Source: Candidatus Dojkabacteria bacterium (GTDB taxonomy: Bacteria > Patescibacteriota > Dojkabacteria > SC72 > JAFGCJ01). Taken from it: 34,024 nt of DNA. The notes below the pieces were generated by a model, which did no database searches, was not told the DNA's origin, and saw only the letters and a program-made list of their open reading frames with translations. Numbering within the stretch: position 1 is the first letter of the stretch; every line of letters starts with the position of its first letter. The DNA lies in assembly GCA_016929645.1 (NCBI GenBank), contig JAFGIK010000080.1, positions 1-34,024 of the forward strand, written 5' to 3'. Of the stretch, positions 16,455-21,949 are shown piece after piece. Both the position numbers and the translations under genes were made by a program.

Positions 16455-17534
16455 TTATCTTGGTCCTACTTTTTTCTCAAATGATTCAATCGATAATTCA
16501 ATAATTTTGTCAAAAAATTCAGTCGCTGTCATCCCTGCCTCAGCAGCTTGATGGAAAACCATTGTAGATGGTGTAACTCCTGGTAAAGTATTTGGTTCTA
16601 GAACAATTAACTCGCCATCTTTCCAAAATGCATCAATTCTGGAATAAACAGATAATTCAAGAATTTTATAAATCTCAACAAATCTTGCTTGAACCGATTT
16701 AACAGTCTCTTCATCCATCCCTGTTGGAGGAGTAATCATTGATGCGTCACCTGGAAGGAATTTTTCTTCAACTGATAAAACAGCGGATTTTTTAGGGGTT
16801 TCTGTTGGAACAAGGGCATAAGGCTCTTCATTACCAATAATAGTACATGTTATTTCTTGTGCATCAATAAATTCTTCAACAAGAATAATAAGATCCCATT
16901 TAAACGCTTCTTCTATAGCATTTTCAAGCTCAGCATCATTATTAACTTTACTTACTGCAGTGCTACAACCTTCCCGACTTGGCTTTACAATCATTGGATA
17001 CTTATGAAATTTTTTAATTTGTAAAAGAATTGAACTTTTATCTGAAGTCCAATTTGCATATTCCACAGAAATATATTTTGGAACGCGAATTCCAGATCCT
17101 TCAAGAACTTTTCTCTGGAAGTACTTATCCATACCAAGTGAAGCACCAATCATACCCGGTCCATTGTATGGAATATTTATCAACTCAAGAAGGCCTTGCA
17201 AACAGCCATCTTCAACAAATTTGCCATGTAGACCAAGAAATGCGAAATCAACATATTCTGGAAGCTCTTCATATCCAAGCTTGAGAGATTCATCATTTTT
17301 CAGCTCAGCAATAATATCATCAGTTGTATTAAGCCAAAGTTGGGATTCACTAAGTCTCCAAAAGGTTAAATCTCTATTTACAAAAATTATAACTTTTTCA
17401 TATTTTGAATCATCAAGACTGTTATAAATATGTCGACCACTTTCCAGTGAAATCTCACGCTCTGATGATTTTCCTCCAAGAAAAACACCAACTCGGAATT
17501 TTTCGTTATTTTTTAATTTCTCTGACAACTTCAT
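16455..17534 (-). CDS. ddl: D-alanine--D-alanine ligase paralogue 1
   Basis: GVFLGGKSSEREISLESG, FLGLHGKFVEDGCLQG, IVKPSREGCSTAVSKV, SRIDAFWKDGELIVLEPNTLPGVTPST. Confidence 0.9.
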   Translation of the reverse strand: MKLSEKLKNNEKFRVGVFLGGKSSEREISLESGRHIYNSLDDSKYEKVIIFVNRDLTFWRLSESQLWLNTTDDIIAELKNDESLKLGYEELPEYVDFAFLGLHGKFVEDGCLQGLLELINIPYNGPGMIGASLGMDKYFQRKVLEGSGIRVPKYISVEYANWTSDKSSILLQIKKFHKYPMIVKPSREGCSTAVSKVNNDAELENAIEEAFKWDLIILVEEFIDAQEITCTIIGNEEPYALVPTETPKKSAVLSVEEKFLPGDASMITPPTGMDEETVKSVQARFVEIYKILELSVYSRIDAFWKDGELIVLEPNTLPGVTPSTMVFHQAAEAGMTATEFFDKIIELSIESFEKKVGPR

Positions 17535-17552: not shown

Positions 17553-18710
17553 TTATTGTAAAGAACCTTTTTTATTAGAATGGGCATCAATTGCAAGGTT
17601 AACAATCGTCGTTATCAATTCTCTTGGTGATAAGCCAGTTTGAACTTTTCCGCCCTTTACACTTCCATTGGCACCACTTTTGAGACTACCTGATTTCATG
17701 CTAGCTCCTTTAATAGAATCTGCACTTATTTCAGAACGAGAAACCTGCTGGAAAACATATGATGATGGAACCATAATAGTGCCTGTATGTGTCTCTCCAA
17801 TATATATTTTATCATCAACAACGTAGCCATCAACCCTACCGTACCCTTTTACCCCCATAAGTTTGTAAACATTTACCGCAGTATCCTTGATTTTATTGAC
17901 CATTTCAGAAGAAATCCGTGGAGGTGTATGATATTGAGCTCGACCAGGCATATACTTACTCTCATAGGTATGAATGTCTCCTTCAAAATCAACCTCGCTT
18001 GGCGTCATTGCTGCAGGATTATTGTTTCCAATTACTACACACATAAATTCAGTACCTTTAATATATTTTTCGGCAAGTATTTCGTTATCCCATTTAAACG
18101 CCTCGTCTACACATTCTTTTATCATAGATTCATCCTTGCAAAATGTAACACCAACACTCGATCCTTCTCGAGTTGGTTTTACTACAAAAGGAAGCCCAAG
18201 TTTTGTTATCATTTCCTGGACGACTTTTTCTCTTTTATCATCATCCTGCCAATCAGTCCTATACAAAACAACATCTTCTGGTACAAGAATCCCATGACCT
18301 TTTAATAGCTGTTTCGTGACTCGTTTGTGCATTCCAATAGAAGAAGAAAGCACTCCAGCTCCAGTATATGGAATATTCAGCATTTCAAGTAAACCTTGAA
18401 TAACACCATCCTCACCATATTTACCAAGAAGAGCAATGAACATGACATCAACATATTTATGAAGGTCATCGTATTTGATTCGCTCAGCTTCCTCAAGCCT
18501 AGATTCAACATCGTCTGTTTTATTTTGAATTACAAGCTTATCCGGAATTTTGTAGATGTTAGCATTTCTCGCCATATACAGAGGAACAGCCTCATATTTA
18601 CTTCGATCAACAAGTGAGTAAACATATCGTCCAGTAGCAAGAGATATTTCCTTTTCTGCAGATAAACCGCCAAAAATAACACCAATTTTCAATTTATTTG
18701 AATCTGTCAT
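17553..18710 (-). CDS. D-alanine--D-alanine ligase paralogue 2, divergent
   Basis: GVIFGGLSAEKEISLATG, GKYGEDGVIQGLLEMLNIPYTG, VVKPTREGSSVGVTF, GRVDGYVVDDKIYIGETHTGTIMVPSSYVFQ; ATG at 18710 preferred over TTG at 18716. Confidence 0.85.
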   Translation of the reverse strand: MTDSNKLKIGVIFGGLSAEKEISLATGRYVYSLVDRSKYEAVPLYMARNANIYKIPDKLVIQNKTDDVESRLEEAERIKYDDLHKYVDVMFIALLGKYGEDGVIQGLLEMLNIPYTGAGVLSSSIGMHKRVTKQLLKGHGILVPEDVVLYRTDWQDDDKREKVVQEMITKLGLPFVVKPTREGSSVGVTFCKDESMIKECVDEAFKWDNEILAEKYIKGTEFMCVVIGNNNPAAMTPSEVDFEGDIHTYESKYMPGRAQYHTPPRISSEMVNKIKDTAVNVYKLMGVKGYGRVDGYVVDDKIYIGETHTGTIMVPSSYVFQQVSRSEISADSIKGASMKSGSLKSGANGSVKGGKVQTGLSPRELITTIVNLAIDAHSNKKGSLQ

Positions 18711-18801
18711 TAACAAAAAGATATTTAATTTTATATTGGAAAAAACGAACTATTTTTGCACGTTATATAACAACGAAGTCATTAATAAAATATTACACTT
18801 T

Positions 18802-19356
18802 TTAAGGTTTATTTAAAAGTTTTTTAATTTTTTCCCTTACACGGTACAAACGAGTGGCTGCATTTGATTTAGAAATATTTAGCTTATCAGAAATTTCATC
18901 AATACTCATCCGTTCAAAATATTTATAGTAAACTAAATATTGATCATTGACAGAAAGCTTTGAGATCGATTCATACAGCTTGAGTTCTGTTTCATCTCTA
19001 ATCAGCGAAATCTCAAAATCCTCTTTATTTTTACTTTCAATAGTTGATTCATCGATAATATTTACAACTCTTCTATTCTTAGCACTTCGAAAGTAATCAA
19101 ATACAGTGTTTCTGGCAATTCGAAATAGCCATGAAGCAAAACTAATACCTTGCCATTTAAAGTAGTCAAGATTTTTTAAAGCTTTTTCAAAGGTTACTGA
19201 AGCGAGATCTTCGCTAAGTTCTTTATCATTAACTTTTTTCTTTATGTAAAGGAATATCCTTGTGTAGTAACGATCATAAATAGCAGCAAAATAGTTTTTG
19301 TCATTCTGTGCTTTTTTTACATCAATTTTATCTTTTTCTAGTGAAATAATGCTCAT
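18802..19356 (-). CDS. Sigma-70 family (ECF-like) RNA polymerase sigma factor
   Basis: Region 2: ELSEDLASVTFEKALKNLDYFKWQGISFASWLFRIARNTVFDYFR; region 4: YFERMSIDEISDKLNISKSNAATRLYRVREKIKKLL. Confidence 0.9.
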   Translation of the reverse strand: MSIISLEKDKIDVKKAQNDKNYFAAIYDRYYTRIFLYIKKKVNDKELSEDLASVTFEKALKNLDYFKWQGISFASWLFRIARNTVFDYFRSAKNRRVVNIIDESTIESKNKEDFEISLIRDETELKLYESISKLSVNDQYLVYYKYFERMSIDEISDKLNISKSNAATRLYRVREKIKKLLNKP

Positions 19357-20144
19357 TTGCTTAAATCTTCAAATACATCATCTAAATCCACTTCCGCACG
19401 CAGCAGTTTTTCTGAAACTTCAATATCACTTAACCCCAGACCCTTGAGAGTAGCAATTGCAACAACCATTAAATCAACCATAAATCGACCTTTAGGGATA
19501 ATTGTATAATCACAACTTTTGTGCTCATCATTAATATTAAATTCCATACTTAGTCGTGAACCCTTTTTAAGTTCAGTTACAGAATTCAATATCACATTGC
19601 TAGCAGGATCTTTTCCTATTTCGATAAGAGAAATCTTTGAATCTGATACTATCTTCCGTACTCCAAGATCAGAAGACACAACCAAAAGACTTTTTGTCTT
19701 TCGACACAAATCCCCGTATAAATCAAGGACATTCTTATCATGATTCAAGATAACAGTTACCTCAGGATCAACAATTTGTAACCAATAGTCAACTATCTCC
19801 TGCTTCTGGGAACTGAATCTCAAAACAATCCAATTTGAACTTTTTTTACTTAAAAATAATGTAAATAATGTTTTAAAAATGATTGAAATCCAGCCAAGAA
19901 AAGAGTATCTCTTATCCTCATATCCTAGAATCCCAAGTGGAATAGAAAAATCCCAAGACGAAGGAAATATTTGCCTTCTTATCGTATATTCTGGATATAG
20001 CATCTCAGAAATAATTTGAGAAAATAAGTCCAATCCATAATTACCAGAAACAACAATAAACTTGTGATCATGTTTAGCTATTGTCAACTTACACAAGAAT
20101 CTAAGAATAAATGACAATATCCTACGAAATAATTTCTGTAACAT
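19353..20144 (-). CDS. Degenerate MurF-like protein lacking the P-loop
   Basis: IVVSGNYGLDLFSQIISEML occupies the place of a TGSYGKTSTK P-loop; SIPLGILGYEDKRYSFLGW and VILNHDKNVLDLYGD resemble Mur-ligase segments; ATG at 20144 avoids the overlap with the PBP gene. Confidence 0.65.
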   Translation of the reverse strand: MLQKLFRRILSFILRFLCKLTIAKHDHKFIVVSGNYGLDLFSQIISEMLYPEYTIRRQIFPSSWDFSIPLGILGYEDKRYSFLGWISIIFKTLFTLFLSKKSSNWIVLRFSSQKQEIVDYWLQIVDPEVTVILNHDKNVLDLYGDLCRKTKSLLVVSSDLGVRKIVSDSKISLIEIGKDPASNVILNSVTELKKGSRLSMEFNINDEHKSCDYTIIPKGRFMVDLMVVAIATLKGLGLSDIEVSEKLLRAEVDLDDVFEDLSK

Positions 20145-20167: not shown

Positions 20168-21949
20168 CTATTGATCTTTTGGGGCAATACCTAATTCTAC
20201 AACAACATTCTGGAACATATCCACCCATGCAGGTACAACTGTATATGCTGAAAGCGTATTTGTCGTTGGTTCTTCAAGCCTAACCAACATTATCATTTTC
20301 GCACCATGAATAGGTGTAAATCCAACAAAAGTAACGTTTGTTTTGTCTTCATAATATCCATATGCATCAGGTAAAGGGATTTGTGCAGTTCCTGTTTTAC
20401 CTGCGATTTCATAATTATTTATCGGAGTAAACCAATATTTTGCTTCACCATTCGTTACTACATTTGACATCATATCTTGAACTTCGTATGCGGTCTCTTC
20501 TGAAACAATTTGCCCAAAAGATTCAGGTTCAATCGTAATAGTTTCCTCGTCGTCATATAACTTGGAAACAATATAAGGTCGCATTCTTTCACCGTCATTG
20601 GCAATTGTAGAAATGGCAGAAATTACTTGTAGAGGCGTAGCTGATATTGACTGACCAAATGATGCAGCTGCAAGGTCAACCTGATTCCACTCATTAGCAG
20701 GTTTCAAATAACTAGTGGATTCCTCTTCAAGGCCAATTCCAATAAAATCACCAATACCAAATGCACTCAAATAATCATGATACTTATCAGAGCCAACAAG
20801 AAGTCCAAAGCGAACAGCACACACATTATTTGAATTAGCAAGAACATCTTTAGGCTGCTGTGCTCCATCTGGTTGCATGTCCCAGGTATAAATAGTTTTA
20901 TCAATAACCTTTATAGAACCAGTTTCATCGTAACAATACGAATCCTTAGTGATCAAATTCTCTTCAAGAGCTGCCGCAACTGTTAAGACCTTATTAACTG
21001 AACCATATTCATATACATCAGAAATCGCTTTATTTCTATATACATCAGCACTATCAGCTTTCCAGTAATAATTTGGATCGTAGTTCGGATAATTTGCCAT
21101 TGCAAGAATAGCTCCAGTATCAGGGTCAAGAATAATTGCTGAACCACTTTTTGCTCCGAATTCCTTAACACTTTTTTCAAGAGATTCTTCGACTCGCATC
21201 TGCAATCCAGGCATAATTGTCAAAACAATACTTTTACCCTCTCTCGGAATAACAGGGTCATATTCACCAGTTAAAATAACATTTCCACGAGAATCCTTTT
21301 CCTCATATTTAAAACCTTCCTGACCGAGCAGGTCTCCAGCATAATAACCTTCGAGCCCATATTGTCCAACATCTTCACCATCTTCATTTTTGCCAACAAA
21401 ACCCAAAATATGACATGCAAGATTTCCATGAGGATAAATTCGTTGTTCCTCTTCTTTGAAGTAAATACCGAAGAGATTCATTTCCTCCAAAGCTTTCTTA
21501 TCTTCAGAAGAAACATTGTGTTTCAAAGGAACATATACAAAATCATCTGATAGCAACTTATCGACATCTGATTCTTTCATATCAAGAACAGAAGAGACGC
21601 TTGTAATAAATTCATCACGATTTTCATTGAAGCGATCTCTTTCTTCTTCATCTGTACTTAATGTTGCATAAACACCCCACACAGGGTCATCGACAGCAAG
21701 GTAAGTTCCATCTGCTGCATATATAACTCCACGCGATGTTGGTAATCTCAAATCCTCAACATACTGTGATTTAGCAAGATTACTATAATAATCATGAAGA
21801 GAGACTTGCCACCGATACATTTGGTATATAAGTCCAAAAACTACAACGGGAACAACACTAAAAAGGACAAACACATATCTACTTTTAAAATATGTTGTTG
21901 AAGGAAAGTTCTTTACGTTGGCATTATTTTGCCAGATTTTTTTATTCAT
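20168..21949 (-). CDS. Class B penicillin-binding protein (PBP2/FtsI family)
   Basis: GSVNK (SxxK), SNN (SxN), AGKTGTAQIP (KTG), N-terminal TM, LPTSRGVIYAADGTYLA dimerisation domain. Confidence 0.93.
   Translation of the reverse strand: MNKKIWQNNANVKNFPSTTYFKSRYVFVLFSVVPVVVFGLIYQMYRWQVSLHDYYSNLAKSQYVEDLRLPTSRGVIYAADGTYLAVDDPVWGVYATLSTDEEERDRFNENRDEFITSVSSVLDMKESDVDKLLSDDFVYVPLKHNVSSEDKKALEEMNLFGIYFKEEEQRIYPHGNLACHILGFVGKNEDGEDVGQYGLEGYYAGDLLGQEGFKYEEKDSRGNVILTGEYDPVIPREGKSIVLTIMPGLQMRVEESLEKSVKEFGAKSGSAIILDPDTGAILAMANYPNYDPNYYWKADSADVYRNKAISDVYEYGSVNKVLTVAAALEENLITKDSYCYDETGSIKVIDKTIYTWDMQPDGAQQPKDVLANSNNVCAVRFGLLVGSDKYHDYLSAFGIGDFIGIGLEEESTSYLKPANEWNQVDLAAASFGQSISATPLQVISAISTIANDGERMRPYIVSKLYDDEETITIEPESFGQIVSEETAYEVQDMMSNVVTNGEAKYWFTPINNYEIAGKTGTAQIPLPDAYGYYEDKTNVTFVGFTPIHGAKMIMLVRLEEPTTNTLSAYTVVPAWVDMFQNVVVELGIAPKDQ

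Follow-up and report, generated by a model that had tools for sequence, protein, structure and literature searches.

The window, the whole 34,024-nucleotide stretch of Dojkabacteria DNA analysed here, carries a gene for a MurF-like protein that has lost its catalytic machinery (pseudo-MurF). On balance, we read it as a dead descendant of patescibacterial MurF that is kept to partner and regulate the ECF sigma factor whose gene lies immediately downstream. That pseudo-MurF is a non-catalytic, maintained protein is almost certain, and the gene linkage makes a functional partnership with the sigma factor probable. The first-pass annotation, made from the sequence of the window, had proposed a maintained non-catalytic MurF-like protein, which is borne out by profile, fold, tree, catalytic-residue loss and dN/dS well below 1. 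Its functional reading left out the strongest functional clue, the overlapping and long-lasting pairing with one orthologous ECF sigma factor.

We regard the pair as an ECF sigma module whose partner protein is without precedent: in open-access papers, we found neither a comparable Mur-ligase pseudoenzyme nor a Mur-ligase-type anti-sigma factor, and no report of a sigma factor within the dcw clusters of Patescibacteria. Patescibacteria (CPR) are ultra-small, have small genomes and are hard to grow, and we know of no described regulator of their cell-wall synthesis. A conserved pseudoenzyme tied to one division-cluster sigma factor is a concrete, testable candidate.

Gene structure and relationship to MurF

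The pseudo-MurF frame is intact over 263 codons, confirming the real gene of about 264 codons without stop or frameshift described previously. An ORF finder reports a longer ORF starting at 20228; since this version runs into ftsI and the relatives begin at the point corresponding to 20144, the latter start was taken as correct (Table 1).

Table 1. Features of the pseudo-MurF locus and genes used for comparison
Feature	Position in window	Strand	Description
Pseudo-MurF gene	19353..20144	(-)	263 aa
Basic amphipathic N-terminal helix, residues 2-25	20070..20141	(-)	AlphaFold helix 2-25; stands in for MurF domain I
Dead P-loop GNYGLDLF, residues 34-41	20022..20045	(-)	Aligned to GSVGKTTL of genuine MurF
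Conserved loop RRQ...WDFSIPLGILGY, residues 56-75	19920..19979	(-)	Former MurF 'NNEIGVP' region; alignment
VLRF, residues 107-110	19815..19826	(-)	Replaces VxEMG strand with catalytic Glu; alignment
Partner ECF sigma factor, 184 aa	18802..19356	(-)	Pfam sigma regions 2 and 4; orthologous clade
ftsI-type transpeptidase	20168..21949	(-)	Directly upstream of pseudo-MurF, dcw cluster
Genuine MurF-type ligase of the same genome	14219..15703	(-)	Comparison

Single-sequence searches with the window protein were blank, with no Pfam family (E up to 1), PDB sequence or NCBIfam family matched and no match in the genome contigs when it was the only query; the MurF relationship is visible only in profiles and structure. 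A sequence search among 97 related genomes returned some 20 proteins close to 260 aa in length. Weak hits were also obtained to genuine Mur ligases, which measure 410-500 aa and have ligase domains confirmed by Pfam. The family profile (A1), comprising 22 members, aligned along almost its entire length with genuine MurF-like ligases (E 3.8e-20), and hhalign of the family against seven genuine ligases gave a probability of 99.3% and E 2.5e-20 over 250 columns. This is the Mur-ligase profile match that the first-pass annotation had named as a check of its claim. Individual members most frequently matched NCBIfam murF (13/22). According to profile searches, pseudo-MurF occurs in 24 of 86 Dojkabacteria genomes, 23 of them with strong matches and one, G068, with a 277-aa frame at 1.8e-13; in a second class, 10 of 45 genomes have it.

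Structure prediction, another check named, gave the same answer. The AlphaFold model of the window protein (pLDDT 81.5, pTM 0.80) had MurF structures as its best five Foldseek matches in the PDB (E 4.9e-10, TM 0.64), and a model of the subtype found in the second class (pLDDT 86.8) had MurF as its ten best fold matches. Thus hhalign, Foldseek and the tree described below all assign pseudo-MurF the central-domain fold and descent of a MurF ligase. Chance resemblance to MurF was ruled out by the hhalign E-value together with the Foldseek matches. No significant match to pseudo-MurF was obtained in a viral fold library, and none in plasmids.

Loss of the catalytic machinery

In joint alignments of 33 pseudo-MurF proteins (22 of the window's subtype and 11 of the second subtype) with 20 genuine MurF, the P-loop Lys was present in 20/20 genuine and 0/33 pseudo-MurF sequences, none of the latter retaining a GxxGKT/S motif. 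The active-site His followed the same distribution (20/20 versus 0/33), and the carbamylated Lys was found in 19/20 versus 0/33; both positions are deleted or replaced in pseudo-MurF. The Glu of the VxEMG strand is missing from all 22 members of the window's subtype and kept by 8 of the 11 second-subtype members. In the window gene it is replaced by Arg, the strand reading VLRFS, in line with the alteration of VLEMG pointed out initially. The proposed replacement of GKTS by LDLF was right as to the loss of the motif and off by one residue in register, the aligned change being GKTT to GLDL. The C-terminal domain is indeed missing from the window protein and from its whole subtype; the second subtype has a remnant with a conserved Arg (11/11) and Asp (11/11). 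Judged from these aligned residues, the pseudoenzyme status of pseudo-MurF can be regarded as secure.

The first-pass annotation had also recognized a MurF N-terminal/central region, which holds for the central part only. MurF domain I, the domain that binds UDP-MurNAc, is absent, and all that lies ahead of the central domain is a helix some 25 residues long. Because of this absence, the suggested role as a UDP-precursor sensor is weakened. Genuine patescibacterial MurF homologues likewise carry a helix where domain I would be, so the loss of the domain preceded pseudo-MurF. The helix of the window protein has a net charge of +6 and a moment of 0.77, and being basic and amphipathic, it makes membrane or protein docking plausible; no clear transmembrane span was found in the protein by hydropathy. 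The genuine MurF-type ligase of the same genome has a long hydrophobic N-terminal region at the place of domain I.

Compared with MurF ligase (TIGR01143; Mur_ligase_M, PF08245), pseudo-MurF therefore retains the central-domain fold and the MurF loop region but lacks the P-loop Lys/Thr, the catalytic Glu, His and carbamate Lys, domain I and, apart from the remnant in the second-class subtype, the C-terminal domain. A divergent active enzyme performing other chemistry on the Mur fold would be consistent with the polar positions conserved across the clade in the joint alignment (R7, R57, N58 and an acidic residue at 65), but with the nucleotide-binding and active-site residues and the C-terminal domain gone, this explanation is very improbable.

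Single origin and purifying selection

A tree inferred on 134 columns placed 33/33 pseudo-MurF in one clade (100/99) within patescibacterial MurF, with support of 99/94 and 99/93 for the two subtypes. Since all of them form one clade, a single origin inside MurF is indicated. The nearest known proteins are thus patescibacterial MurF without domain I, among which pseudo-MurF is nested and with which it has the N-terminal helix in common.

NG86 dN/dS was 0.16 and 0.10 in two pairs with unsaturated dS, both from a lineage without the sigma factor, and 0.03 in a sigma-linked pair, in which dS was saturated. The pseudo-MurF values were close to those of murA, murE and ftsI of the same genomes. The missing catalytic motifs could also be read as those of a decaying pseudogene; however, the frames are open throughout two classes, the proteins form one ancient clade, and dN/dS resembles that of neighbouring essential genes. 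The comparison across relatives, advised at the outset because a ratio near 1 would indicate decay, gave values far below 1, which, together with the conservation, leads us to reject the pseudogene reading; its probability is negligible.

Pairing with one orthologous ECF sigma factor

The ATG of the sigma gene overlaps the pseudo-MurF stop by 4 bases (ATGA, 19353-19356). Its short product contains both sigma regions of an ECF factor (PF04542, E 2e-14; PF08281, E 1e-9). In the sigma tree, the partner forms one orthologous clade, separated with support of 99/97 from 20 other ECF paralogues. Among 86 Dojkabacteria genomes, 16 have both genes, 8 pseudo-MurF only, 1 the sigma factor only and 61 neither. 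The orthologous sigma factor, present in 17 genomes, is therefore beside pseudo-MurF in 16/17, and it directly follows pseudo-MurF in 16/16 genomes holding both; in one of these (G076) it was not called by the ORF picker, and a genome search located it in the space separating pseudo-MurF from murE. In the second class, 10 of 45 genomes have both genes and 35 neither, the sigma factor being found in exactly the genomes with pseudo-MurF. The two genes adjoin in 9/9 checkable second-class genomes, and across the two classes they often overlap; in G433 they lie on different contigs, with pseudo-MurF near a contig end. With genomes counted as independent and shared ancestry uncorrected, co-occurrence was significant in Dojkabacteria (Fisher's test, p = 1e-10) and in the second class (p = 3e-10). 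The mirror-tree partial correlation of the two proteins was reached by 736 of 2000 permutations.

The usual gene order in Dojkabacteria is mraZ-mraW-ftsL-ftsI-murA-pseudoMurF-sigma-murE. This position, between murA and murE in most Dojkabacteria, suits the main rival explanation, in which pseudo-MurF is a scaffold or a structural or allosteric partner of MurA, MurE and genuine MurF. By docking to these enzymes or to the membrane, it would organise the synthesis of precursors, and the sigma factor would be a dcw passenger. A structure of a MurE-MurF complex exists, and its entry 8f5d is among the fold matches. Against this, the link to the sigma factor outlives the link to murA and murE: in the window genome, the murA-to-murE part is on another contig and ftsI, pseudo-MurF and sigma are still together, and G047, whose genome has no MurA match, has retained the pair alone, outside the dcw cluster. 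In the second class, where the sigma factor is strictly co-inherited, the pair is mostly antisense inside the dcw cluster, with the murA/ftsI part on one flank and the ftsW or murB part on the other, and often forms its own antisense two-gene unit. We consider the scaffold explanation unlikely, though it gains from the sigma-less lineage described below.

A TATAAT-like box lies 5-13 bases before the start in 10/11 subtype-II pseudo-MurF genes (loci L110, L120, L123, L124, L125 and L157-L162), compared with a shuffle mean of 1.9 and maximum of 8 in 2000 shuffles, and with 26/74 for other genes of the same loci. This suggests that the subtype-II pair may have its own promoter and a very short leader. 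No upstream ECF promoter motif was found above shuffles.

The window also encodes a MurF-type ligase, MraY and Ddl, and because the pathway is otherwise complete, pseudo-MurF replaces nothing obvious. The second of the two tandem D-Ala-D-Ala ligase genes, 17553-18716(-), has ETHTGTIMVPS where its neighbour (16455-17534) has EPNTLPGVTPS, and a C-terminal insert rich in Ser, Gly and Lys; its product may be an altered or inactive Ddl.

Exceptions to the pairing

Eight genomes (family f9 and G068) have pseudo-MurF without the sigma factor, located between murA and murE; in this lineage, the gene overlaps both by 4 bases each. The seven that are in the tree form a single nested lineage (98/96), so one loss of the sigma factor explains the sigma-less genomes. 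As pseudo-MurF was kept there, and remained constrained, a sigma-independent role must have been present or gained in this lineage, which, with the overlaps, favours the scaffold explanation. A relocated partner sigma was ruled out for the four sigma factors tested, all of them other paralogues. Residues H25, R56, L70, G74 and W85, which the 26 sigma-linked members conserve completely or almost so, have been lost from the sigma-less proteins. They are candidate sigma-contact or ligand positions, although the pattern represents a single evolutionary event.

The reverse case is found in the genome most closely related to that of the window, G001, in which the sigma gene lies about 60 bases after ftsI with no pseudo-MurF between them. 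In this 87% complete bin, no Mur ligase domain and no MurA match were found; mraZ, mraW, ftsL, ftsI, a PBP1-type gene and the dcw sigma gene are present (L117, contig 7).

Proposed role of pseudo-MurF

In both classes, pseudo-MurF is encoded beside a sigma factor, as anti-sigma factors are beside their cognate sigma, with the eight sigma-less genomes and G001 as exceptions. The usual gene order is sigma then anti-sigma; here it is reversed, which counts against an anti-sigma reading. Both the sigma-less lineage and the solitary sigma factor of G001 also weigh against sigma regulation, and no known anti-sigma domain was detected in pseudo-MurF by Pfam (E up to 1). From the gene linkage, control of the anti-sigma type is accordingly a possibility that we put forward tentatively. 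The two proteins would bind each other, and pseudo-MurF would hold or release the sigma factor, perhaps through its basic N-terminal helix and the conserved RRN...PL.ILG loop. What triggers this could be a ligand occupying the former MurF pocket, or else contact made with Mur enzymes or the membrane, so that transcription would be coupled to the state of cell-wall synthesis.

The same linkage would fit a positive partner, a holoenzyme subunit or chaperone aiding the sigma factor. The precedent would be the plastid MurE-like protein, which is among the fold matches (8r6s_Q) and sits, as PAP11, in the plastid-encoded RNA polymerase complex (PMC9456514). G001 has the sigma factor alone, however, and the plastid protein is of MurE type and offers an analogy only, making a positive partner rather improbable.

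Returning to regulation by pseudo-MurF, the pair may, with similar reserve as for anti-sigma control, define a new class of sigma regulator, in which a dead MurF senses the state of peptidoglycan precursors or the occupancy of Mur enzymes and accordingly gates an ECF sigma factor dedicated to it. If so, this would clearly exemplify how an enzyme of a core pathway can become a regulator of transcription. It would give a function to a protein family left blank or weakly 'murF' by Pfam and NCBIfam, and Patescibacteria would have a cell-wall homeostasis switch within the division/cell-wall gene cluster.

Comparison with known systems

Like ECF sigma/anti-sigma modules, the pair is a two-gene unit with an ECF sigma factor in a cell-wall gene context. 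One such module is B. subtilis SigM with its membrane anti-sigma factor, which responds to how much cell-wall lipid carrier is present (PMC11081497). For class I anti-sigma factors, membrane binding is predicted in about 65% (PMC7406223). The partner here has a Mur-ligase fold in place of an anti-sigma domain, the reversed gene order and no clear transmembrane segment. A review points out that uncharacterised elements are encoded close to many ECFs and that searches favour anti-sigma factors already known (PMC8103513).

PAP11/MurE-like is likewise a Mur-ligase homologue recruited to transcription; in contrast to pseudo-MurF, it is of MurE type, is encoded in the nucleus of plants, belongs to a polymerase complex and has no linkage to a sigma gene. 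MurT of MurT/GatD, also among the fold matches, is a relative of Mur ligases that acts together with a second protein. Unlike pseudo-MurF, MurT is a subunit of an enzyme, and its structures contain bound AMPPNP; no gene resembling GatD was observed next to pseudo-MurF.

A second group of truncated MurF proteins, 218-245 aa long, was observed in other Patescibacteria (L126:2186-2842, L127:8088-8816 and L128:8436-9173). The genes adjoin an apparent aminotransferase gene, and the proteins form their own clade (98/91); their P-loops show different degrees of decay (GNLGKTETK, GITSKTTTK and GTNSRYWIK). By these sequence features, the group is possibly a second, independent pseudo-MurF.
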